In this document: positions 4,319-48,518 of the stretch, piece by piece
Position numbering within the stretch: position 1 is the stretch's first letter
Layout of the letters: every line of letters starts with the position of its first letter
Program-made: the position numbers and the translations under genes
Assembly: GCA_022828225.1 (NCBI GenBank)
Contig: JAJEJG010000006.1
Span: 62,001 to 126,000, forward strand
Source: Nitrospirales bacterium
GTDB taxonomy: Bacteria; Nitrospirota; Nitrospiria; Nitrospirales; UBA8639
Length of the DNA: 64,000 nucleotides
Direction of reading: 5' to 3'
The notes under the pieces: generated by a model
The model's input: the letters and a program-made list of their open reading frames with translations, nothing else
Database searches by the model: none
What the model was told of the DNA's origin: nothing

Positions 4319-5728
4319 CTAAATATCGTAGTACAAGAAGAATTCATGGGGATGAGGACGAATGCGAACCTCATCGGCTTCGTTTTCCCGCTTATAGCTG
4401 ATCCAGGCTTCTACCAGGTCTTCGCTGAAGACCCCGCCCTTGAGCAGGAATTGATGGTCATTCTCCAGGTTATCGAGTGCTTCATCCAGACTTGAAGGCA
4501 CCGTCGGGATATTCGACGCTTCCTCCGGCGCCAAATCGTAGAGATTCTTGTCCATGGCTTCGCCCGGATCGATCTTGTTTTGAATCCCGTCGAGTCCCGC
4601 CATCAGCATGGCGCTGAACGCGAGATAAAAATTTGCCGAAGGATCGGGAAACCTGACTTCGATCCGTTTGGCTTTCGGATTCGTCGAATACATCGGGATG
4701 CGAATGCCCGCCGACCGGTTTCGGCTTGAATAGGCCAACAACACGGGAGCCTCGAATCCCGGGGTCAACCGCTTATAGGAATTGGTCGTCGGATTCGTAA
4801 ACGCCGCCAGGGCCGGAGCATGTTTCAGTACGCCGCCGATATAATGCAGACACGTTTTGGACACGCCCGCGTATTCCTTGCCGGCAAACGTCGGTTTCCC
4901 GTCTTTCCAGATACTTTGATGGGTGTGCATGCCCGTCCCGTTATCCTGGAACAACGGTTTCGGCATGAACGTCGCGGTCTTACCGTGCCTCCGCGCCACG
5001 TTTTTGACGATATATTTATACATCATCATCTTGTCGGCCATTTTCAGCAAGCTGTCGAAGCGAAGATCGATTTCGGCTTGCCCCCCCGTCGCCACTTCGT
5101 GGTGATGTTTTTCAACGTGAATGCCGGCCTTTTCCATTTCCCTGACCATTTCGGTACGGATGTCCTGTTGCGTATCCGTCGGGGGAACGGGGAAATAGCC
5201 TTCCTTATGCCGGGGCCGCGACCCCAGATTGTGACCGTCGTCGCCTGAATTCCAAATGCCTTCTTCGGAGTCGATGAAATAATAGCCCGAGTTGCTGGTT
5301 TGGTCATAACTCGCATGATCAAACACGAAAAATTCGGCTTCAGGTCCCCAATAGGAAGTGTCGCCGATTTTGCTGCTTTTCAGGTATTGTTCCGCCCGTT
5401 GAGCCACACCTCGCGGGTCCCGCTCGTAGACGGCGCGCGTGATCGGATCTTGCACGTTACACACCATACTGAGAGTGGGCAGTTCGGTGAACGGGTCCAT
5501 CCGGGCGGAATTTGGGTCCGGGAATACCAGCATGTCGCTGTTCTGAATAGCTTTCCACCCGCGGATGGACGACCCGTCAAAGCCCGCTCCATCCTTAAAC
5601 AAATCGAGGTTCAGTTCGGAGGTCGGGATGGAAAAATGCTGCCACGTCCCGACCAGGTCCACAAACTTGAGATCGACCATTTCCACTTTGTTCTTCTTGG
5701 CAAAATCCAATACTTCACGCGGAGTCAT
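4319..5728 (-). CDS. glnA: Glutamine synthetase type I (GSI-beta)
   Basis: This enzyme makes glutamine from glutamate, ammonium and ATP in the cytoplasm and is the main entry of ammonium into metabolism. The 469-residue length and motifs are those of bacterial [30 protein letters not shown], the NRSAGIRIP segment and [19 protein letters not shown]. The NLYDLAPEE motif places the adenylylation tyrosine at residue 397, as in E. coli, so this is a GlnE-regulated type. A strong AGGAGGT precedes the ATG. It is the last gene of the porin-amt-PII-amt-glnA cluster, 59 bases after amt, and is followed by a terminator. The split GlnE genes lie immediately downstream. Confidence 0.97.
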
Positions 5729-5787
5729 TCCGTACCTCCTTCTTCACACAATAGGTTTTGTTGTACAACGCCGATACGACTATTTTT

Positions 5788-7086
5788 TCAGGAATAGGCG
5801 CGCTCACTATGCTGGCTCAAATCGAGCCCGGTTTCTTCGTCTTCCGGCGATATCCGAAGGCCGACGAGGGCATCAACGACTTTCAAAATGATAAAGGTTC
5901 CGACCACGACAAACACGAGCGTGGAAACGGCCAACACGATTTGAATGACAAATTGACCCGGGTTTCCAAAAAATAACCCTTGGGCCCCGACGGAAGCAAA
6001 TAACCCGGTTGCCAGGATTCCGGTGAAGCCTCCCACTCCGTGAATGGCCACCACGTCGAGCGAATCATCGTACCCGAGTCTCACTTTCAAGACAACCGCG
6101 GCATAACAAAGGGCACCGGCTACGAGTCCGATCAGTAATGCCGACAAGGGCGAAAGGAATCCTGCGCCGGGCGTGATGGTCGCCAAGCCCGCGATGATAC
6201 CGCTGGCCACTCCGAGCATGGTGGGCTTGCCGGTCCTCACCCATTCCGCCACCATCCAACTGAGTCCACCGGCGCATGCCGCAATATGGGTGGCCACAAA
6301 AGCCGTAGCCGCACCCCCATTGGCACCCAAGGCGCTCCCCGCGTTGAATCCGAACCACCCGAACCACAGCAGGCCCGTTCCCAGGACCGTCATCGGCAAG
6401 TTATGCGGCAACATGGATTCAACCCCGTAGCCTTTCCGTTGTCCCAACACCAGGGCGCAGACGAGCGCGGCAAAACCCGAGCTGATGTGCACCACGGCTC
6501 CTCCCGCAAAGTCCAATGCGCCCATCTCTCCCAGCCATCCGCCTCCCCAGACCCAATGGGCAAGCGGCGAATAAATCAGGACCGACCAGAGTACGGCAAA
6601 GAGCAGCAACGCCGAGAATTTCATCCGTTCGGCAAAGCTGCCGGTAATCAGGGCCACGGTAATGGCCGCGAACATGAGTTGGAACACCATGAAAACCAGA
6701 TGGGGGATGCCCGTACCGGGAAACGCATCCTGGCCCACGCCCATCAAGCCGAGAAATTCCAGGCTGCCGATTATCCCGCCGACGTCGGTCCCGAATGCCA
6801 ATGAATAGCCGATCAACACCCACACGATGCTGATCAGACACAGGATGACGGCAGTATGCGCCAACGTCCCAAGTACGTTCTTACTCCGGACCAGGCCGCC
6901 GTAAAAAAGCGCCAACCCGGGCAAGGTCATGCATAACACGAATGCGGACGACACCAGAATCCACGCCGTATCGCCGGTGTCGATAGCCCCCGGAGTACCG
7001 TCCTGGGCCCATCCGGTCGCCACCCCGCACGATACGCTCAGAATCACAATCAATAGCCACATGAATGAGAAGGTCGAGTGCTTCAC
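5788..7086 (-). CDS. amtB: Ammonium transporter (Amt/MEP/Rh family), second copy
   Basis: A 432-residue inner-membrane ammonium channel with an N-terminal signal-like segment ending near GWAQDG and about eleven hydrophobic helices. Family landmarks include AFVLCMTLPGLALFYGGLVR, the first pore histidine in LAHWVWGGGWLGEMGALDFA, GLLWFGWFGFNAGS and the second pore histidine in VVAIHGVGG. The start is GTG at 7086, chosen for the AGGTGG ribosome-binding site before it. The protein is closely similar along its whole length to the other Amt at 7691-8995, including the tail (LDLSQHSERAYS), which suggests tandem duplication around the PII gene. PII proteins bind and block Amt trimers, which fits the neighbouring PII gene. 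Confidence 0.95.
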   Translation of the reverse strand: MKHSTFSFMWLLIVILSVSCGVATGWAQDGTPGAIDTGDTAWILVSSAFVLCMTLPGLALFYGGLVRSKNVLGTLAHTAVILCLISIVWVLIGYSLAFGTDVGGIIGSLEFLGLMGVGQDAFPGTGIPHLVFMVFQLMFAAITVALITGSFAERMKFSALLLFAVLWSVLIYSPLAHWVWGGGWLGEMGALDFAGGAVVHISSGFAALVCALVLGQRKGYGVESMLPHNLPMTVLGTGLLWFGWFGFNAGSALGANGGAATAFVATHIAACAGGLSWMVAEWVRTGKPTMLGVASGIIAGLATITPGAGFLSPLSALLIGLVAGALCYAAVVLKVRLGYDDSLDVVAIHGVGGFTGILATGLFASVGAQGLFFGNPGQFVIQIVLAVSTLVFVVVGTFIILKVVDALVGLRISPEDEETGLDLSQHSERAYS

Positions 7087-37997: not shown

Positions 37998-38993
37998 CTA
38001 CTCTCGAATCAAAAGCTGTTCTGCCGCTTCGACGTCTTCACGACTGCCAATGATCAGCGGAACACATTGGTGGGGAGTTTTGGGGTGAATGGTGGAAATG
38101 CGCTCCACGCCCGTGCTTCCAATTCCCCCGGCCTGCTCCGCCACGAAACTCAACGGAGCGGCTTCATACATCAAACGCAGTTTTCCCTCAGGTTTCTGCA
38201 CGTCACCGGGATACAGGTACAGCCCGCCCTTCAGCAAAATCCGATGGACGTCCGCCACCAGACATCCCGTGTACCGTGAAGAATACGGTCGTCCCGTGGC
38301 CTCGTCATGAGCCTGAAAATGATCGACTACTTTTACCATATTTTTTGACCACTTATATCTGTTACCTTCATTGACACTATAGATTTTACCACTGGCCGGA
38401 ATTTGAATATTCGAGGCCGAGAGGAAAAATTCACCGCTCTCCGGCTCGAGCGTAAATTGATGCACGCCTTCTCCGCACGTATACACGAGAATCGTGGCGG
38501 TTCCATACAACAGATACCCTGCGGCCACTTGCTCACACCCCGTCTTCAGAAAATTTCCGGCGGGGTCCAACCGATGGATGGAAAATATCGACCCGAGAGA
38601 TCCGTTGACGTCGATATTCGAGGACCCGTCCAGCGGATCGAAAAATACGGCGAATTTCCCAGATCCTTCGACAGGCTCAGGACAGGCTCCTTCGGCATGA
38701 GCGACGACAAACGGTTCGTCCATTTCTTCGGAAACCACGATTTGCACGATCGTGCTATCCTGAAAGGCCTCCACAAACAGCGCGTTGGCCCGTGCATCCA
38801 TTCGCTGCACCTGCTCGCCATGGACGTTTCGCTCGTCGGTCGTGCCGAGGCGATCCGTGAGACCCGCCGCGCTCAGATCCCGGACAATTTTCTTCCCTGC
38901 CGAGACAATACCATTCATGATCGCGGATAAATCCGCCGCGCCATCGGCCTTTAATTGTTGCTGGTCTAAAATATGGCGGGTAAGGGAGATCAT
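37998..38993 (-). CDS. fbp: Class I fructose-1,6-bisphosphatase with an in-frame repeat insertion
   Basis: A 331-residue enzyme that removes the 1-phosphate of fructose-1,6-bisphosphate in gluconeogenesis or the Calvin-type cycle. Conserved parts are IVVSEEMDEP, the metal site FFDPLDGSSNIDVNGSLGSI, the KIYSVNEGNRYKWSKNM segment, RYTGCLVADVHRILLKGGLY and PLSFVAEQAGGIGSTGVERI. Just before the metal site, eight residues (ACPEPVEG) are encoded by a 24-base interspersed repeat. The reading frame is intact, so the enzyme may still work with a lengthened loop. The ATG at 38993 follows GGAAAC and fits the family N-terminus. Confidence 0.93.
   Translation of the reverse strand: MISLTRHILDQQQLKADGAADLSAIMNGIVSAGKKIVRDLSAAGLTDRLGTTDERNVHGEQVQRMDARANALFVEAFQDSTIVQIVVSEEMDEPFVVAHAEGACPEPVEGSGKFAVFFDPLDGSSNIDVNGSLGSIFSIHRLDPAGNFLKTGCEQVAAGYLLYGTATILVYTCGEGVHQFTLEPESGEFFLSASNIQIPASGKIYSVNEGNRYKWSKNMVKVVDHFQAHDEATGRPYSSRYTGCLVADVHRILLKGGLYLYPGDVQKPEGKLRLMYEAAPLSFVAEQAGGIGSTGVERISTIHPKTPHQCVPLIIGSREDVEAAEQLLIRE
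38664..38687. repeat. Interspersed repeat inserted in the fbp reading frame
   Basis: TCCTTCGACAGGCTCAGGAC followed by AGGC lies in coding sequence. On the coding strand GAAGGA flanks both sides of the unit, like a target-site or slippage duplication. The same unit sits in intergenic positions at 40063-40083 and, varied, at 52575-52599. Confidence 0.85.
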
Positions 38994-39045
38994 AAGCAGT
39001 TTCCGGTATGAATCATTATAGGATTTTTGCGCAAAAAGTCGAGGC

Positions 39046-39816
39046 TCATTTCCGTGACGGACTCCATTTCTCAATCACCGCCGTGGCCGACCCGACAATG
39101 ACTCGGGCTTCCATCATGACGGGAACCCGCTCCGGCGTATTCGTGAGCCAGATTCTGATGTTGCCCTCATTCAGGAAAATCCCCCGAAACGGCATAACGG
39201 CCAGCAGGCGAATCGCTTCGACCTCGCCCCAGGACCCGCTGACGGATTCGATGGCTTCGACCTTGACCTCGACGTTGTAGTTCTTCCGGTCATGGTGAAT
39301 ATCCAGATACACCGAAGAGCCCGGTTCGAGATTCGGCATCGTCCGCAAAAAATACAAACACGATAAGGGACCATGCGAACCGGGCGGAATGTCATGAACC
39401 GAGGATTCGCCGTCTTTCACCACCGTGACCCGGTTGATCAGACGATCGAACGTGACGTCAAATTCTTCATGGCGACTGCCCTCTCGACGTTCAAACAACA
39501 AACGCCGGGGGAGCAGGGTCTCGGCATCGACAAGTGAATCCACGTGGTTCTTGACTGGAAAAAAGACGGAAATAAAATCATTCGACCGAATCGTGGTCAC
39601 CAGGCGCCGGGCCGGATTCCCGTCGGCATCCGTCACTTCTTCCGTTTTCATGTACGCGTGCCCGGCCGGAACGCCCCACAAGGAGATGCCATAGCGATAA
39701 TCTTCTTTTTCCTGAACAGCAAAAGCCGCAGGTAACAGAGCCGCCGCCAGCAATCCCAGCAGCAGGCCGCTCACCCCGATCACGAACAGTCTATGTCGAA
39801 TCAATCCGGCACGCAT
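39046..39816 (-). CDS. Exported DUF3108 protein
   Basis: A 256-residue protein with an N-terminal signal-like helix (LFVIGVSGLLLGLLAAALLP, cleavage near AFAVQEKED) and a DUF3108 domain: DYRYGISLWGVPAGHAYMKT, FFPVKNHVDSLVDAETLLPR, VTFDRLINRVTVVKDGESSV, DIPPGSHGPLSCLYFLRTMP and a final RIWLTNTPERVPVMMEARVI. Members are periplasmic or outer-membrane-associated and thought to bind lipid-like ligands; there is no proven role. The gene precedes fbp on the same strand with a short gap. Confidence 0.85.
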   Translation of the reverse strand: MRAGLIRHRLFVIGVSGLLLGLLAAALLPAAFAVQEKEDYRYGISLWGVPAGHAYMKTEEVTDADGNPARRLVTTIRSNDFISVFFPVKNHVDSLVDAETLLPRRLLFERREGSRHEEFDVTFDRLINRVTVVKDGESSVHDIPPGSHGPLSCLYFLRTMPNLEPGSSVYLDIHHDRKNYNVEVKVEAIESVSGSWGEVEAIRLLAVMPFRGIFLNEGNIRIWLTNTPERVPVMMEARVIVGSATAVIEKWSPSRK

Positions 39817-39889: not shown

Positions 39890-40106
39890 ACCTGTCATCC
39901 TGAGCGAAGCGAAGGATCTCGTAGTTTCTCATGTGCCCTTTTCCGTCATCCCCGACCTGATTGGGGATCCAGTATCGTTGTATTCGTTTCTTCTCTTGTC
40001 CTTGTCTGTCATTCCCGACCCCGATCGGGAATCCAGCGTTGTTCAGTTCCCCTCCTCTGTAAGCCTGTCCTGAGCCTGTCGAAGGAGAGGGGCAAGGGGA
40101 GGTAGA
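39890..40106. repeat. Cluster of interspersed repeats, one nested in another
   Basis: The 400-base gap before mod holds no gene. It contains CCTGAGCGAAGCGAAGGATC (39898-39917), two GTCATCCCCGACC...GGGATCCAG and GTCATTCCCGACC...GGGAATCCAG elements (39950-40036), and a CCCCTCCTCTGTAA...GGAGAGGGG element (40047-40106) interrupted by a 21-base insert at 40063-40083. Confidence 0.8.
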
Positions 40107-40213: not shown

Positions 40214-43153
40214 ATGAGTAATTCGAAAACGTCCCAAGCGGCCATAAAAAAACCGCGCTCCGCTTCGCAATCCAACGACAAATTCGACCGGCTGAAGGAC
40301 ATTCTGCGCGAGATGTTCCAACTCGACCGGGGCGACCTCGATTTCGGCCTCTACCGGATCATGAACCTGAAGGCGAAGGAAATCGAAGCGTTTCTCGAAA
40401 ACGACCTGTTGCCGCAAGTACGGACGGCGCTGGTGGGGAACACCTCCGACACGCTGGCGGCACTGGAAGAAAAACTGGCCGAAGTCCGAAGACAGGCCGT
40501 GGACCTCGGTGTCGATCCGGAAGCCGCGCCGAAAGTCGAAGAGTTGAAGCAACAGCTTGCCGAAGCCAAGGCGGACGTTGTAGCGGAAACCGACGTTTAC
40601 AACCATCTCGCCAACTTCTTCGCCCGATATTACGACGAAGGTGACTTCATGTCCCTGCGCCGCTATTCAGGCGGCGGCCAGCCGACTTACCTCATCCCCT
40701 ACGACGGTGAAGAAGTCAAGCTGCACTGGGCCAACGCCGATCAATACTACATCAAGACAACCGAAAATTACGCCTCCTACGTCTTCACCGTAAACGCGGG
40801 CGCAAAAATGGGACGGGTCAAGTTCGAGATTGCCACCGCAGACAACGAAAAGGACAACGTCAAGGAGGCAACCGGTAAACAACGCCGGTTCCTGCTTGCT
40901 GGCGACAAGACGGAGGCCATGACCTTCGACGGCACAGACTTGATAGTGCACTTCGCGCACCGGCCACTGACCGAACACGAAAAGAAAGAGTTTCCCGGCA
41001 ACGGGGCGAAACAGCAGGAGCGACTCAACGAGGCCATTGCAAAACGTATCCTGCAAGCATTGCAACCGGATTGGCAGGCCCTGCTTACCGCACCCTCCCC
41101 CACGGAAAACAACCCCGAGCGCACGGTGCTGGACAAGCATCTGGCCGCGTACACCGCCAAGAACAGCTTCGACTACTTCATTCACAAGGACTTGGGTGGG
41201 TTCCTTCGTCGTGAACTGGATTTCTACCTGAAAAACGACGTATTGAACCTGGATGATTTGGCACTTGGAGACGCAGCCCGGCTGGGCCGGGCGCTGGCGC
41301 GGATGCGCGCCGTCCGCCACGTGGCTGACAAGATCATTGACTTCCTGGCGCAATTGGAAAATTTTCAGAAACAACTCTGGCTGAAAAAGAAATTCATACT
41401 GGAAACGCAGTATTGCGTAACCCTGGATCGCATACCGGAAACTTTATACGCGGAAATCGCCGCCAACGAATCACAGCATGACGAATGGGTAAAGCTGTTC
41501 GCCATCGACGAAATCAAACTGAGCACGCCCCATACTTCCCCTCTCCCACTGGGAGAAGGCCATGGTGAGGGAAGACCGCGTGAGGGCACGCCTTATACCA
41601 ACCCGTTAACCGTGGATTTCCTCAAAGCCAACCCCTATCTAGTGCTAGACACCCGGCACTTCGACGCAGATTTCACCGGCCGCCTGCTGGCCGGACTTTC
41701 CGAATCCGGACCACTGGACGAGCAAATGGACGGTCTGCTCCTACATGGCGAGAACTTCCAAGCGTTGAATTTGTTAAAAGCGCGGTATGGGGGGCAGGTA
41801 CGGTGCATGTATATCGATCCACCGTACAATACGGATGCTTCGGCGATCTTGTATAAGAATGATTATAAAGACTCCTCGTGGCTTTCCTTAATGGAAAATC
41901 GTCTTCTGTTCGGAAAGTCTTTGTTGTCTGAAGGCGGAATTCAGTGCTGTGCCATTGACGACGAAGAAGTCTGGCGATTGCGTGCACTTATGCAAAATCT
42001 GTTCGCCTATGAATTAGGTGTTGCTGCTGTGCGTTCTAATCCCGTGAGTCGAAAATCGACAGGAAAACTGTCACCCTCCCATGAGTACGTTTTCTTTTTC
42101 GGGAAGTCTATGGAGTCGATTCCCGGTTACATCGAGAAAACTGAGAAACAGCTAAAGCGTTATCCTTTCAAAGACGTTAAAGGATCTTATGCTTGGCTGA
42201 ATTTCATCAGATCAGGCACAGGTGACAGGAGAGAGGATCGTCCTCACGAGTTTTATCCGCTTTATATTAGGGATGACGATTCAATCCGTATACCAAAAAT
42301 GAGGTGGAATGAAGGAAGTCGGAAGCATGATATTTTGGAGAAACCACAGCCAGATGAAGTAGCTGTCTGGCCCGTACGCGAAGAGGACGGAAAGCTCATT
42401 GAGAAGCGCTGGCAGCGCAGTTGGGAGAGAGTCGAAAGGGATTTGACTGAATATCGCGTGCGTCGTGACCGAGAAGGTAGCATCAATATAGATTTCAAGG
42501 TGCGTTTGGACGAGGCTGCTCCGCCTTCAACGTGGTGGATGCACAAGGAATACACCTCTTCAAATTACGGACCCAAAGAACTGAAAAAGCTATTTGGAGA
42601 CAATGGTTTCGATTTCGCCAAGGCACCTAGGTTGGTTGAGGACTGCTTGCGGACTGCAGGTGGTGGACAAGCTGATGCTTGCATTATGGATTACTTCGCT
42701 GGTTCCGGTACAACCGGCCATGCAGTCATCAATCTCAACCGCGAAGATGAAGGCGAACGCAAGTATATCCTGGTAGAAGTCGGTGACTATTTTGACACGG
42801 TATTGCTGCCACGTATGAAAAAGGTGGCCTATTCACCGGACTGGAAGGACGGCAAGCCGGTTTCGCGCGAAGGGGTCTCGCAGTTCTTCAAATACGTCCG
42901 TCTCGAATCTTACGAAGACACACTAGATAGCCTTGAGGTGACGCCACCGGATTCTGCACAGCAGGATTTGCTGGAACAAAATTCCGAACTAGCAGAGGAC
43001 TATCGCCTGCGCTACGCGCTGGGCGTGGAGACATCTGGTAGCACGTGCCTGCTCGGCAAGGACTTTACCGATCCCTTTACCTACACCTTGTCCGTGGTAC
43101 GCGACGGCATGCGACGGGAAGTCTCGGTCGATCTACCTGAAACCTTCAACTAG
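40214..43153 (+). CDS. mod: Type III-like DNA adenine methyltransferase (Mod), ending at an internal amber codon
   Basis: A large site-specific N6-adenine methyltransferase. Motif IV (MYIDPPYNTD, about residue 535) precedes motif I (DYFAGSGTTGHAVINLN, about residue 827), the beta-class order of type III Mod proteins. The first 500 residues (opening with KFDRLKDILREMFQLDRGDL and DFGLYRIMN) are an extension seen in the large Mod forms paired with a helicase subunit. The frame stops at TAG (43151-43153) after DLPETFN but continues in frame for 98 more codons. A repeat encodes SPLPLGEGHGEG near residue 445. The central part (about 41800-42700), which should include the target-recognition region, is visibly more AT-rich than both ends. 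The enzyme may be active, truncated or dead. Confidence 0.87.
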   Translation: MSNSKTSQAAIKKPRSASQSNDKFDRLKDILREMFQLDRGDLDFGLYRIMNLKAKEIEAFLENDLLPQVRTALVGNTSDTLAALEEKLAEVRRQAVDLGVDPEAAPKVEELKQQLAEAKADVVAETDVYNHLANFFARYYDEGDFMSLRRYSGGGQPTYLIPYDGEEVKLHWANADQYYIKTTENYASYVFTVNAGAKMGRVKFEIATADNEKDNVKEATGKQRRFLLAGDKTEAMTFDGTDLIVHFAHRPLTEHEKKEFPGNGAKQQERLNEAIAKRILQALQPDWQALLTAPSPTENNPERTVLDKHLAAYTAKNSFDYFIHKDLGGFLRRELDFYLKNDVLNLDDLALGDAARLGRALARMRAVRHVADKIIDFLAQLENFQKQLWLKKKFILETQYCVTLDRIPETLYAEIAANESQHDEWVKLFAIDEIKLSTPHTSPLPLGEGHGEGRPREGTPYTNPLTVDFLKANPYLVLDTRHFDADFTGRLLAGLSESGPLDEQMDGLLLHGENFQALNLLKARYGGQVRCMYIDPPYNTDASAILYKNDYKDSSWLSLMENRLLFGKSLLSEGGIQCCAIDDEEVWRLRALMQNLFAYELGVAAVRSNPVSRKSTGKLSPSHEYVFFFGKSMESIPGYIEKTEKQLKRYPFKDVKGSYAWLNFIRSGTGDRREDRPHEFYPLYIRDDDSIRIPKMRWNEGSRKHDILEKPQPDEVAVWPVREEDGKLIEKRWQRSWERVERDLTEYRVRRDREGSINIDFKVRLDEAAPPSTWWMHKEYTSSNYGPKELKKLFGDNGFDFAKAPRLVEDCLRTAGGGQADACIMDYFAGSGTTGHAVINLNREDEGERKYILVEVGDYFDTVLLPRMKKVAYSPDWKDGKPVSREGVSQFFKYVRLESYEDTLDSLEVTPPDSAQQDLLEQNSELAEDYRLRYALGVETSGSTCLLGKDFTDPFTYTLSVVRDGMRREVSVDLPETFN
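41535..41571 (+). repeat. Interspersed repeat inside the mod reading frame
   Basis: CTTCCCCTCTCCCACTGGGA followed by GAAGGCCATGGTGAGGG matches the intergenic type at 34337-34379. It is in frame and encodes SPLPLGEGHGEG between the N-terminal region and the methyltransferase core. Confidence 0.7.
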
Positions 43154-43447
43154 CTACTCGGCCTGCGCCTCGAATCGCGCCGACTGGTGGACAGCATGCT
43201 CGCCATCACCGGCACGGACCTCGAAGGAAAGCACTGCCTGATCCTCTGGCGCAACCTGAACGAAACCGACAACACCGCACTGGAGAAATGGTTCACTCGC
43301 CACCGTGCCGAATTCACCGAATCACTCGACGCTATCTATGTCAATAGCGACCACACCCTGAACGCCCTGAAACAGCCAACCGAGACTTGGACCGCAAAGA
43401 CCATTGAGCCGGTTTTTCGGGAATTGATGTTCGAGGAGATGAACTGA
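43154..43447 (+). pseudogene. Detached C-terminal tail of Mod
   Basis: The reading frame after the mod amber codon stays open for 97 codons (LLGLRLESRRLVDSM, then ITGTDLEGKHCLILWRNLNE, ending VFRELMFEEMN). It is the natural Mod C-terminus. The context FN-stop-LLGL suggests a tyrosine codon changed to TAG. A start at the GTG at 43187 is conceivable, but no ribosome-binding site supports separate translation. Confidence 0.8.
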
Positions 43448-43475
43448 ATTTGGTGTCGAGAGAGAACAACTATAA

Positions 43476-44333
43476 ATGTCAATTCAAGACATCGTACTAA
43501 GTGTCGTCCCATCAGCCGTTATAAGCAGCGCGCTGTTGGTAATAATCGGATGGTTATTTCGCGAATCTATAAGCGCATGGCTTAAAGCTAGTATCCAGCA
43601 TGAATACGATCAAAAACTTGAAACTCATAAGGCAAGCCTTAAATCTCAGAACGAGGCCTCCTTTCTTGAACTCAAGAACGCGCTCGATCAAAGATTTACC
43701 TTATATCAAGCAGCTCAGACATCTTTTGCCGAGGGGCAGAAAGCGGCAATAGAGCGAAAGTTGGATTCGATAGAAAAATTATGGAACGAAATATTAAGGT
43801 TGAAGAACGAATGTCCGCCCATGTTGGCTTTCATCGATTTATTATCTGTAAAAGAATATAAAGATGCGCGCAATCACGAGGGCTTTGGAGAATTGGCCAC
43901 AGGTTGTTCTCCAGAAAAGATTGCCGAGTATGTAGGAAACAGAGACTATCCCGTTGAAAAGGTACGTCCGTATGTTGAGGAATATTTGTGGTCCATGTTT
44001 TTTGCCTACCGGCAAATTATGGGACGAATCTGTTCGCTCCTATATTGGAGCCTGAAAGACGCTGACAAGGCTGAATGGCATAATGACAACTTCCTACAAC
44101 AAATCTTGGAAGCAGTTCTAAGTAAAAATGAACTCACCGAGTTTGAAAACATCAATCTTCGTAAAATATCTTGGCTCCAGCAACGACTGGAATCGAAGAT
44201 ACTAGCCGCATCACAAAAGATAATTTCTGGTGAAAAATTAAGCGAAGAATCGTTTGCGCAAGCACGATCGATTCTAGAGCGTGCAGCTATGCTGGACTCA
44301 ATTAACCGCCACGAATCTTCAAGAAAGTCTTAA
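43476..44333 (+). CDS. Membrane-anchored coiled-coil protein of unknown function within the restriction island
   Basis: A 285-residue protein. One N-terminal membrane helix (VVPSAVISSALLVIIGWLF) is followed by HEYDQKLETHKASLKSQNEA and a long charged coiled-coil region to about residue 110, then a helical domain (EYVGNRDYPVEKVRPYVEEY, FFAYRQIMGRICSLLYWSLK). I do not recognise a catalytic motif. Similar N-termini (SAVISS, membrane helix, HEYDQKLETHKA) are, from memory, common among unnamed genes in bacterial defence islands. The base composition is clearly AT-richer than the flanks, indicating separate acquisition. It lies between the true mod tail and a degenerate second mod tail. Confidence 0.75.
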   Translation: MSIQDIVLSVVPSAVISSALLVIIGWLFRESISAWLKASIQHEYDQKLETHKASLKSQNEASFLELKNALDQRFTLYQAAQTSFAEGQKAAIERKLDSIEKLWNEILRLKNECPPMLAFIDLLSVKEYKDARNHEGFGELATGCSPEKIAEYVGNRDYPVEKVRPYVEEYLWSMFFAYRQIMGRICSLLYWSLKDADKAEWHNDNFLQQILEAVLSKNELTEFENINLRKISWLQQRLESKILAASQKIISGEKLSEESFAQARSILERAAMLDSINRHESSRKS

Positions 44334-44378
44334 TTGTCCTAGTGCGTGCCGAGGAGTTGCTCGAAAACGACGCCAACG

Positions 44379-44479
44379 GCGACCATACCCTGAACGCCCT
44401 GAAACAACCAAACGAAACCTAGACCGCAAAGACCGTTGAACCCATATCCCGAGAATTGATGTTTGAGGAGACTGAGTGA
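44379..44479 (+). pseudogene. Degenerate duplicate of the mod 3' end
   Basis: This 101-base stretch aligns without gaps to the last 101 bases of mod (43347-43447): both contain ACCCTGAACGCCCTGAAACA, GACCGCAAAGACC and GAATTGATGTT-GAGGAG. The copy has an in-frame TAG where mod has TGG. Its GAGGAG serves as the ribosome-binding site of the next gene. Confidence 0.88.
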
Positions 44480-45450
44480 TGGCTGAGAAACGCGATACGT
44501 CCGCCGAGCATCTCACGTTTTCACAACGTCACCGCTACGAGCCTTTGCCGAAAACAATGCGGTTGGAAGAGCTATCTGGTGATTTGAGGCGTGAAATATG
44601 GAACCGTATGCGCGGATTTCTGAGCGTGTTTCGAGAGGATAAATTCATCGGTGAAGACACGTTTAGAGACGAGAAAATTACGGGATTTATAGAATATGTT
44701 CTTGGGAAGTTGTTCAAATTGCCCCAGGATGAGATTCAAAGCGATTACGAAAACGCAATGTCTCAATTCAAGGAGATAATAGAGAAAGCGAAATTCAACA
44801 AAGTGCTTGACCTCATCGAAATCGTGGCAAACTCTGACAGCCCAAATGGAGTGACTGTAACAGGCAACACGATTGCCCAAAATGAGTATCCCTTGGAGTT
44901 TATCGTCCAGAGAAACGAATTTATCCTGGCTATTAGTGACCAGTTCAACCGACATGCTGCACCTTATTGGTTGGACATTTCACAACGTCCCTGCCAATTT
45001 TTCCCGCGTAGCTGCAGAGAGCAAGGCGAAGCGACACAGCAAGCTATCAAGACGATTCGCGAAAGTGGCATGGAAGGCGCGTCAGTGCACCTGCGTCAAG
45101 CGGCCCAACACATCAATGCACAGCAATTTGCAGATTCGGTTGAGTCTAGTATCGAAGCGGTTGAATCTGTCGCTCGCAGAATCGCTCCAAGATCAAGAAC
45201 ACTTGGCGAAGCACTGAAAAACCTTGAAAAGAAAGGGCTACTCACAAATAGCCAGCTCAAGACGGGGTTTGAAAAAATTTATGCCTATACCAATACCGAA
45301 GAAGGTGTCCGTCATTCGCTGGTATTCAAAGACTCCTCCGATGTCGGCATAGATGAGGCTATGTTCATGTTCGGTGCCTGCGCATCGTTCGCCGCTTATC
45401 TCGTGAATAAACACCGTCAGATGAACCAACAACAAGATGGCGCTCAATGA
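44479..45450 (+). CDS. AbiJ-like abortive-infection protein
   Basis: A 323-residue protein matching AbiJ-type phage-defence proteins. The N-terminal domain begins LTFSQRHRYEPLPKTMRLEE and LRREIWNRMRGFL (AbiJ N-terminal type). The C-terminal part has SIEAVESVARRIAPRSRTLG, ALKNLEKKGLLT, GFEKIYAYTNTEEGVRHSLV and a final helix (MFGACASFAAYLVNKHRQ). This resembles the HEPN-like abortive-infection region, with the RH pair as a possible RNase residue set. The ATG at 44479 overlaps the stop of the mod-tail copy (TGATG), and its own stop overlaps the res start (ATGA), so it is wired into translation of the restriction operon. Expected outcome is growth arrest on infection; that is inference. Confidence 0.78.
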   Translation: MAEKRDTSAEHLTFSQRHRYEPLPKTMRLEELSGDLRREIWNRMRGFLSVFREDKFIGEDTFRDEKITGFIEYVLGKLFKLPQDEIQSDYENAMSQFKEIIEKAKFNKVLDLIEIVANSDSPNGVTVTGNTIAQNEYPLEFIVQRNEFILAISDQFNRHAAPYWLDISQRPCQFFPRSCREQGEATQQAIKTIRESGMEGASVHLRQAAQHINAQQFADSVESSIEAVESVARRIAPRSRTLGEALKNLEKKGLLTNSQLKTGFEKIYAYTNTEEGVRHSLVFKDSSDVGIDEAMFMFGACASFAAYLVNKHRQMNQQQDGAQ

Positions 45451-48400
45451 AGGCCCTCCAAAATCGTCTAGTCCTGCACCGCTTTATTTGCCGGGAATTC
45501 GGTCACGATGACATGCGTACGATGCTGGACCGGATGCGCGACGTTCCGGCCGGCTTCGATGCCGGCGGTGAGAGCGAATACGCTCGCGCACTGTATTTGT
45601 CTTCGACTGCCCCGGTCCAGGCCGATGAACTGGCCCAATACGACGCCAACGTCGTCGCGCATAGTCACAAGCTACGCATGACCGCCGAGCAGGGACGCGT
45701 CTGGAAGCCGTATCAATACCTCGCGCTGTTGTTCACGGAACGTTACCTGCACCGGTATTTCCACGATCCCGAAGCCCTCTGCGACGACTTGAACAAAGCA
45801 CGGACCACACACCGGTTGACGCGGGACATGCCGAAATACACGCTCGGCGACCTGCGGACCATCGCGTTTCAGAGCGCGACCGGCTCCGGCAAGACGCTCC
45901 TCATGCACGCCCATATCCTGCAATACCGGCATTACTTGGCCGCCTCCGGCGGGCGACTCAACAACGTTGTCCTGCTGACACCCAACGAACAGATGTCAAT
46001 GCAGCACGAGAAAGAATTGCGGGCAAGCGGCTTGCCTGCGCGGCTGTTTTCCGCCGAGGCCGGGACCGACTTGTTCCCGCACGTGGAAATCATCGACCTC
46101 AACAAACTGGGGGAAAAGAAGGGTGTCAAGCGTATCGCCGTGGCGGATTTCGGCGACAACAACTTGGTGTTGGTCGACGAAGGACACTTGGGTGCGAAGG
46201 GCAAGGTGTGGCGTGAGCGCCGCAAGGAACTCTCTCGTGGCGGTTTCACCTTCGAGTATTCCGCCACCTTCAACCAGATCGTGGGTAAGGACCCCGAACT
46301 ACCCGACGCCTACGGGAAATGCTTGCTGTTCGATTACGCCTATCGCTGGTTCCACGAGGACGGCTACGGCAAGGATTATGACATCTCCAACCTGCCTCAA
46401 GGCATGGCCGACGGGAACCGCGACGTGTACCTGCTGGGCTGTCTGCTGACTTTCTATCAGCAATGCCGCATCTGGCGGGACAAGGCTGCGGGCTGGACGG
46501 ACTTCAACGTGACCAGGCCGCTCTGGGTCTTCCTGGGTAAGACGGTGACCGGTTCCAGCAATGCGGATAAGGAAACGCGGTCCGATGTTGTGAGCATCCT
46601 GAATTTTCTGGCCCGGGTGTTGGCGGACGGCGACAAGGTGCGTGTCATGATCGGGCAACTGCTGGACAAGCAGTCCGGCCTCACCGACGAAAGCGGACGA
46701 GATTATTTCAGGGATCGATTCACGTATCTTTCCGAACACATGTCCGCACCCAAAGCCGGCGATCTCTATACTGACCTGTGCACCACCCTGTTTCACGGTC
46801 TGGGACAACTGCACGTGGTCTACCTGACCGCGGGCGAGGGCGAATTGCACCTGCATGCCGGCGATGGACCAGCCTTTGGTGTGGTCAACGTCGGTGATTC
46901 CGCTGCCCTGTACAAATTGTTGACGGAGCAGACCAACTCGCACTTGTCAGTTTCCCGGGAAGCCGGTTTTGCCGAGCGACTTTTTGCCGACGTGGACAGA
47001 CGCGATTCGCCGGTGAATATCGTCATCGGCGCGCGACGTTTCATTGCCGGCTGGAACTCGTGGCGCGTAGCGACCATGGGATTGATGCACGTCGGCGTCG
47101 GCGAAGGACCGGAGATTATCCAGATGTTCGGACGGGGTGTGCGCTTGAAAGGCTGGAATATGAGTCTGAAACGCCATCAGAAAAGCGGGGCGGAATTGCC
47201 AGCGGGCAGCGCGGACTTGGCGCATCTGGAAACGCTGAATATTTTCGGCCTGCGGGCCAACTACATGCAGACCTTTCGGGAACTTCTGGAAAAGGAAGGC
47301 GTGCGGATCGAACGGGAGACGGTTCGTTTACCCGTTACCTGGAATTTCGCCAGGAAGACGGACCTGAAGTTGATTCGGCTCAAGGAGGACGTGCAATACG
47401 CGCGTTCTGCGGAGCGCCCTATCCTGCCCGGTCCCGGTGACGTTGAGCAGCCCGTCGTCACCCTGGACCTGTATTCACGGTTGCAATCCGTCGCGTCCTC
47501 GGACGTTACGGCCGAACAGTCGGCACCCAAAAAATCGATCAAACTTCCGTCAAGTCAAGTCGCGTTTTTCAATCGAACGCGCCTGTACGACAAGCTGTTG
47601 AACCGGAAGCAACAACGGGGCTGGCACAACCTGACGATTGAGCGTGACATGGTGGACTGCCTTCTGGGCAGTTACGATTGGTATGACCTGTATATGCCGA
47701 CGGAACGCTTGTCACTAACCGGCTTTCCGCAGATAGCGGAACTCGAAGACGTGGCGCTTGATCTCATCACTGAATATGCCGATCAATTCTGGCGCAAACA
47801 GCGGCGGCAATGGGAGCACGATAAGATCGAAGTGGTCACGCTGGACAAGGACGATCCAAACAATATTAAAGCCTATGAGATATCCGTGGATGCGACCGAG
47901 AGCCAGTTGGTTAAAGACGTTCATGAATTGGCATCGAGCGTTCGAGCTGGCGATTTCCATGATCTGAGCATCAGCGTCCTCATGATAGAGGCTCATGCCT
48001 ATAAACCGTTGCTGTATGCCGGGCCGGACAGCAAAGTGAAGATTCAGCCGGTTTCCCTGAATAAGGATGAAAGGAGCGTCGTCGAAAAACTGGCCACGCT
48101 GGCGGAACACCACGACCCTTGCCTACACGGCAAGGAGTTGTTTCTTATCCGCAACCTCACGCGCAGCAGGGGCGTGTCGTTCTTCGACGATTACGCCTAT
48201 TACCCCGACTTTATTCTCTGGTTGAAGGATGAAACCTGCCAACACGTCATTTTTCTCGACCCCAAGGGGCTGAGCCGCTACGGAACGCGCGAACAACATA
48301 AGATCAACCTGCACCACGAGATCAAAAAGACCGAAACGCAAATCCGCCGTACCGACCCCGACGTGTACCTGCACGCCTACATCCTATCCGTCACGTCACC

Positions 48401-48518
48401 GGCCCTGATAGGCGAAGCCATGCGTTCCCGAGACGACTGGAAGCGAGAAGGCGTCTATTTTCTGAATGAACCTGATTGTCTGAAGCAAATGATCGCCCAT
48501 GTATTGGAACGGGCGTGA
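45447..48518 (+). CDS. res: Type III-like restriction subunit (Res): DEAD-type helicase with PD-(D/E)xK nuclease
   Basis: A 1023-residue protein with a Walker A motif in TIAFQSATGSGKTLLMHAHI (residues 143-150), a helicase motif II NLVLVDEGHLGAKG (DEGH, about residue 238), the TFEYSATFNQIVG motif III region, a C-terminal helicase half with FIAGWNSWRVATMGLMHVGV and QMFGRGVRLKGW, and a C-terminal nuclease site YYPDFILWLKDETC...VIFLDPKGL (about residues 910-940). Type III Res cleaves after translocating from unmethylated sites in complex with Mod. The start codon overlaps the AbiJ-like stop. If the amber codon inactivates Mod, Res would lack its partner, and cleavage would be expected to be off. 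Confidence 0.9.
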   Translation: MKALQNRLVLHRFICREFGHDDMRTMLDRMRDVPAGFDAGGESEYARALYLSSTAPVQADELAQYDANVVAHSHKLRMTAEQGRVWKPYQYLALLFTERYLHRYFHDPEALCDDLNKARTTHRLTRDMPKYTLGDLRTIAFQSATGSGKTLLMHAHILQYRHYLAASGGRLNNVVLLTPNEQMSMQHEKELRASGLPARLFSAEAGTDLFPHVEIIDLNKLGEKKGVKRIAVADFGDNNLVLVDEGHLGAKGKVWRERRKELSRGGFTFEYSATFNQIVGKDPELPDAYGKCLLFDYAYRWFHEDGYGKDYDISNLPQGMADGNRDVYLLGCLLTFYQQCRIWRDKAAGWTDFNVTRPLWVFLGKTVTGSSNADKETRSDVVSILNFLARVLADGDKVRVMIGQLLDKQSGLTDESGRDYFRDRFTYLSEHMSAPKAGDLYTDLCTTLFHGLGQLHVVYLTAGEGELHLHAGDGPAFGVVNVGDSAALYKLLTEQTNSHLSVSREAGFAERLFADVDRRDSPVNIVIGARRFIAGWNSWRVATMGLMHVGVGEGPEIIQMFGRGVRLKGWNMSLKRHQKSGAELPAGSADLAHLETLNIFGLRANYMQTFRELLEKEGVRIERETVRLPVTWNFARKTDLKLIRLKEDVQYARSAERPILPGPGDVEQPVVTLDLYSRLQSVASSDVTAEQSAPKKSIKLPSSQVAFFNRTRLYDKLLNRKQQRGWHNLTIERDMVDCLLGSYDWYDLYMPTERLSLTGFPQIAELEDVALDLITEYADQFWRKQRRQWEHDKIEVVTLDKDDPNNIKAYEISVDATESQLVKDVHELASSVRAGDFHDLSISVLMIEAHAYKPLLYAGPDSKVKIQPVSLNKDERSVVEKLATLAEHHDPCLHGKELFLIRNLTRSRGVSFFDDYAYYPDFILWLKDETCQHVIFLDPKGLSRYGTREQHKINLHHEIKKTETQIRRTDPDVYLHAYILSVTSPALIGEAMRSRDDWKREGVYFLNEPDCLKQMIAHVLERA

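Follow-up and report, generated by a model that had tools for sequence, protein, structure and literature searches.

The gap between mod and res in a type III restriction-modification (RM) operon of a Nitrospirota bacterium appears to be a slot through which independent defence genes are exchanged as cargo, and we put the probability of this reading at about 0.7. In the analyzed genome the slot holds an abiJ-like gene and a second gene, here called X. The gene content, the scars in the DNA and the pattern of recurrence and loss were observed in the genomes compared, and the HEPN fold of AbiJ was predicted by modelling.

The window is a stretch of 64,000 nucleotides (G000:C7:62001-126000) from a genome of 2.36 Mb, designated G000. 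It was compared with a genus set of 14 genomes and a phylum set (Nitrospirota) of 296 genomes. Because the relatives are mostly draft assemblies, an absent gene could reflect an assembly gap; absences were scored by searches with E-value limits.

Organization of the mod-res locus

Reading of the sequence placed mod, X, abiJ and res at 40214-48518, all on the + strand. The features are as follows.

40214-43153, + strand: mod, type III N6-adenine-type methyltransferase; 979 codons to an in-frame TAG (43151-43153)
43154-43447, + strand: mod tail 1, the last 97 mod residues, in frame past the TAG and otherwise intact
43476-44333, + strand: gene X, 285 aa; predicted to have a transmembrane helix at its N-terminus, a long coiled coil and a C-terminal helical part
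44374-44479, + strand: mod tail 2, a dead second copy of part of the mod 3' end, with an in-frame TAG (44420-44422)
44479-45450, + strand: abiJ-like gene, 323 aa; alternative start GTG at 44476
44515-44835, + strand: AbiJ_NTD4 match, the N-terminal, hypervariable part of AbiJ
45061-45423, + strand: predicted HEPN domain, AbiJ residues 195-315; invariant R278-H279 pair at 45310-45315
45447-48518, + strand: res, type III restriction subunit, 1023 aa; SF2 helicase and putative PD-(D/E)XK end

The mod product belongs to the type III methyltransferase family (N6_N4_Mtase, 5.9e-20; PADLOC MTase_III, 645 bits, 5.3e-194). The motif DPPYNT (DPPY) is present in its sequence, and Mbo45V and EcoP15I Mod were matched in the PDB. 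Res, encoded in the same operon, was matched by Pfam ResIII (4.8e-6) and PADLOC REase_III (533 bits, 3.3e-160). With AbiJ, Pfam AbiJ_NTD4 scored 44 bits (4.2e-11) against a curated cut-off of 34, and PADLOC PDC-S32 matched along nearly the whole protein (1e-49). The first-pass annotation of this DNA had described mod and res as parted by a membrane-anchored coiled-coil gene and an AbiJ-like gene, and had proposed a profile search for the AbiJ N-terminal domain; families and coordinates agree with that description, and the search identified the domain.

Overlaps of abiJ with its neighbours: The abiJ TGA (45448-45450) and the res ATG (45447-45449) overlap as ATGA at 45447-45450, as had been noticed at first. 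Since further genes (HigB-like toxin, MazF-like toxin and small proteins) lie between abiJ and res in relatives, this overlap is a feature of G000 only. The abiJ ATG at 44479 shares one base with the TGA (44477-44479) of the upstream mod-tail frame. The start overlap reported earlier is thus real at the level of that base, but the tail is a dead second copy and not the mod gene. Coupling of abiJ to mod translation in G000 was rejected for this reason. An overlap between the mod stop and the abiJ start was found in the relatives G227, G185 and G296.

The mod stop codon and the duplicated mod tail

The TAG at 43151-43153 interrupts mod; at this position seven relatives read TAC (Tyr), and six of the seven belong to the same genus. 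The frame continues past the TAG to 43447, and the final 97 residues are cut off as assembled. By tblastn, tail 1 showed 80-85% amino acid identity to the uninterrupted genus relatives and 66% in G177; it was also matched by the C-terminal part of PADLOC MTase_III. Because the TAG is the sole stop in mod and the tail is otherwise conserved, the change is recent or, as could be the case, an assembly error.

As assembled, G000 has no intact full-length Mod with a C-terminal Res-binding domain. In EcoP15I, ModA contacts Res via the C-terminal domain, aa 539-644 (PMC4490356). The missing part of Mod corresponds, by its C-terminal position, to most of this Res-contact domain. By this analogy, restriction in G000 may be impaired, provided that the TAG is real. 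The locus resembles EcoP15I in its mod and res families, the DPPY motif of Mod and the helicase core of Res (PMC4490356). Unlike the EcoP15I protein of 644 aa, Mod here has about 1076 aa, cargo lies between the genes, and a nonsense codon removes most of the C-terminal domain.

Alternatively, the locus could be decaying, with mod a pseudogene, X and abiJ passengers, and little working in this strain. The in-frame TAG and the dead second tail are consistent with this, as is decay elsewhere, namely an abiJ remnant in G299 and an integrase-like element that cuts the G296 mod. We consider decay quite unlikely, because X, abiJ and res have intact frames, mod contains no stop other than the TAG and the tail is otherwise conserved.

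Over 44374-44471, mod tail 2 is identical to tail 1 (over 43342-43439) at 81 of 98 bases, whereas the best other 98-mer in 30 kb reached 45 of 98. Tail 2 is closest to the tail of G296 (88.7%), and tail 1 is closest to that of G185 (87.6%). These affinities are the trace expected if foreign mod-X DNA replaced part of, or was inserted into, a G296-like locus. Judged from the sequences, tail 2 appears to be the scar of the mod-X acquisition. Alternatively, the two tails may have arisen by tandem duplication and then drifted. Sliding identity along mod singled out no single donor for mod-X.

Gene content of the mod-res gap in relatives

This res family was found in seven of the 14 genus genomes; two further weak matches (26-27% identity) were left out of the count. 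In five of the seven type III loci (G000, G296, G227, G185 and G177), abiJ lies behind mod, directly so in the last four; in G000 it follows the mod tail copy, with X between the interrupted mod and abiJ. That abiJ comes directly after mod in most genus loci, more than random cargo would, counts against the cargo reading. In the other two loci, mod and res occur without an intact abiJ, which is absent in G197 and reduced to a 24-residue remnant in G299. Other genes occupy the G197 gap in place of abiJ. The gap also holds a MazF-like gene in G185 and HigB in G177.

The occupants differ further in more distant Nitrospirota: AIPR (PADLOC AbiU) in G192, DUF1016/YhcG (PDC-S02) in G023 and an MNT/HepT pair in G057, while the gap is empty in two loci. 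In plasmids from other phyla, mod and res mostly lie side by side, and an Aeromonas plasmid has a HEC-01 pair between them. Thus abiJ lies between core genes that also occur without it or with other cargo, which is what defines embedded cargo. A fixed four-gene system is not supported: the order mod-X-abiJ-res recurred in none of the 13 other genus genomes. A contig scan gave a single further locus, apparently that of G296.

Some additional genes were observed around these loci. The G197 gap contains a retroviral-type aspartyl protease gene (L044:8706-9284). In several relatives, a gene for an HTH and M78 (IrrE-like) peptidase protein lies upstream of mod (L020:1259-2386, L022:3368-4498); it is not in the window. 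G177 has, downstream of res, an AbiLi-like ATPase gene and then a small gene, and such a pair also lies downstream of the lone G171 abiJ (L024:392-2194, L021:10781-12559). The G296 mod (L158, ~5370-6501) no longer matches beyond about residue 515, where it gives way to integrase-like sequence, as judged by eye; its remainder is on another contig.

abiJ without this res family and movement of the operon

Intact abiJ was detected in three genomes that have no res of this family (G200, G171 and G243). In G200, 38 bases of mod tail (92% identity) lie before the gene and a weak match to the end of res (35 bases, 80%, E 0.01) comes after it; its site is the chromosomal site of the whole operon in G185 and G227. 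These flanks suggest that the mod/res operon was probably lost around abiJ in G200.

In G000 and G296, the operon is located between DUF3108-like and phosphomannomutase-like genes, and in G227, G200 and G298 this junction measures no more than about 280-390 bp. Other genomes have the operon at a succinate-dehydrogenase-like site, where G000 is without mod, abiJ and res (these gene names are our reading of the sequences). The type III operon itself thus moves between chromosomal sites.

Viral contigs frequently carry AbiJ relatives (47 loci), and this mod/res was next to none of the 47 within the flanking DNA fetched. The AbiJ search gave no plasmid matches and only three phage records, two of which are the same phage.

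These distributions bear on the idea of an integrated, layered system, in which AbiJ would monitor RM (inhibited Mod/Res or uncleaved phage DNA) and commit the cell to suicide when restriction fails. PrrC plays such a suicide role for EcoprrI. The repeated mod-abiJ junction with its stop/start overlap in relatives and the abiJ/res overlap in G000 argue for integration, and a suicide pairing of HEPN with RM is a published proposal (PMC3710099). However, three genomes have an intact abiJ but no res of this family, two have mod/res but no intact abiJ, the relatives of AbiJ on phage contigs lie away from RM, and abiJ is far more diverged than mod/res. We regard the idea as unlikely. Of the initial view that AbiJ is integrated in the operon, the family assignment and the position behind mod in the genus hold, but its persistence without res does not fit.

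Predicted fold and divergence of AbiJ

The AbiJ model was built from 31 sequences (pLDDT 82.7). The best two fold matches of the C-terminal bundle, over 107-113 residues, were 1ufb (TT1696, which we take to be a HEPN protein; Z 10.6) and 1o3u (Z 9.7), with the AbiA C-terminus (Z 7.3) and a HEPN toxin (Z 6.1) lower; the HEPN values are below the Z of 13 advised for helical bundles, though HEPN structures rank top. Foldseek alone gave no significant match for the AbiJ model. The C-terminal domain is therefore only predicted, from the model, to have a HEPN fold. The R278-H279 pair did not vary in either of two alignments, of 31 and of 12 proteins, and no H was present four to six residues past R. 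Unlike canonical HEPN domains, this AbiJ subfamily does not have the Rx4-6H motif as such; thus, RNase catalysis is not certain.

Among eight genus members, the mean identity was 30% in the middle of the AbiJ N-terminal domain (NTD) and 65% in the HEPN part. Res of G000 has 84-86% identity to five other genus members and 70% to G177. The divergence of AbiJ matches the pattern of a fast-changing sensor tied to a conserved effector, and a fast NTD beside a conserved HEPN part in such close relatives fits the sensor/toxin model of AbiJ.

We infer the following for the exchange-slot reading. The fast-changing NTD is the probable sensor of a phage component or state, and it would restrain the C-terminal HEPN RNase domain; once released, this domain would stop or kill the cell. 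AbiJ would gain from the operon promoter and from mobility, and Mod or Res would not be needed. X, with a possible role in defence, would be a second and later cargo that arrived together with the mod 3' end of a foreign copy, the old mod tail being left as a scar. In this genus AbiJ could instead have become a tuned type III partner: the hypervariable NTD would read a Mod/Res-dependent or anti-restriction signal and fire HEPN on the defeat of restriction, and recombination at the mod tail would exchange mod and cargo as one piece. We find this improbable.

Gene X

The model of X is rich in helices, with an N-terminal hydrophobic helix and then a long helix. No usable match was obtained in Pfam, PHROGs, NCBIfam or PDB sequences, and the fold search gave generic helical bundles only. 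A known defence protein was considered from a weak PADLOC HEC-05 match (6e-4, ~60 residues) and rejected, as the match was not reproduced in X relatives.

In the phylum set of 296, just three genomes besides G000 had an X match; none was beside abiJ, and none was in a mod-res gap among the loci examined. The X relatives occur directly after phage integrases, and one adjoins an AbiGi gene. Another is on a Photobacterium plasmid, after gmtY/gmtX recombinase genes. From these contexts, X appears to be mobile cargo. X and AbiJ are adjacent and co-oriented in G000 and might be taken for a two-gene unit of membrane anchor and toxin. We give this hardly any credence, because the three matches in the phylum are never beside abiJ, a dead mod tail separates the two genes, and their relatives and contexts differ.

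Relation to known systems

HEPN domains, AbiJ included, have been reported in RM operons and read as a suicide layer (Anantharaman et al. 2013, PMC3710099). The union of a suicide arm with RM, which the first-pass annotation offered as an unnamed idea, had thus been interpreted in this way in 2013. Among RM-linked AbiJ proteins, those without an NTD are more frequent (PMC3710099); unlike these, AbiJ here has one. It resembles the AbiJ-NTD4 group (PMC3710099) and PDC-S32 in the order AbiJ_NTD4, then C-terminal HEPN, with a link to RM operons in some published cases.

DarTG2 between hsdS and hsdR of a type I RM system is an embedded toxin-antitoxin defence island active against phages (PMC12255303). 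As there, toxin or Abi-type genes here lie between modification/specificity and restriction genes, at a proposed recombination hotspot. The present case differs in that the cargo sits in a type III operon (mod/res) and that a cargo event is recorded in the duplicated mod tail. The term guilt-by-embedding is already published (PMC12988326), and a guilt-by-embedding preprint has been cited for defence genes in RM operons (doi 10.1101/2024.01.29.577857). Neither the presence of HEPN/AbiJ genes in RM operons nor the embedding of defence genes in RM systems is thus new. In the open-access papers searched, no report of AbiJ cargo in type III mod-res gaps was found. The value of the present locus and its relatives is in the visible traces of cargo exchange, the duplicated mod tail and, in G200, an abiJ probably left after RM loss. 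The genomes with and without RM form a natural series in which to test if an AbiJ suicide arm needs restriction.

Repeats near and inside mod

A low-conservation stretch in mod at 41519-41590 (TSPLPLGEGHGEG...) resembles a palindromic repeat that is translated in frame. At this position, similar LPL/PLP..GEG peptides were observed in G197, G177 and G296, and other short inserts in G185 and G227. The repeat CTGAGCCTGTCGAAGG occurs in frame at 38665-38680, inside a fructose-bisphosphatase-like gene (37998-39074, - strand), and gives the peptide ACPEPVEGS. The same 16-mer appears again at 40070-40085, upstream of mod.
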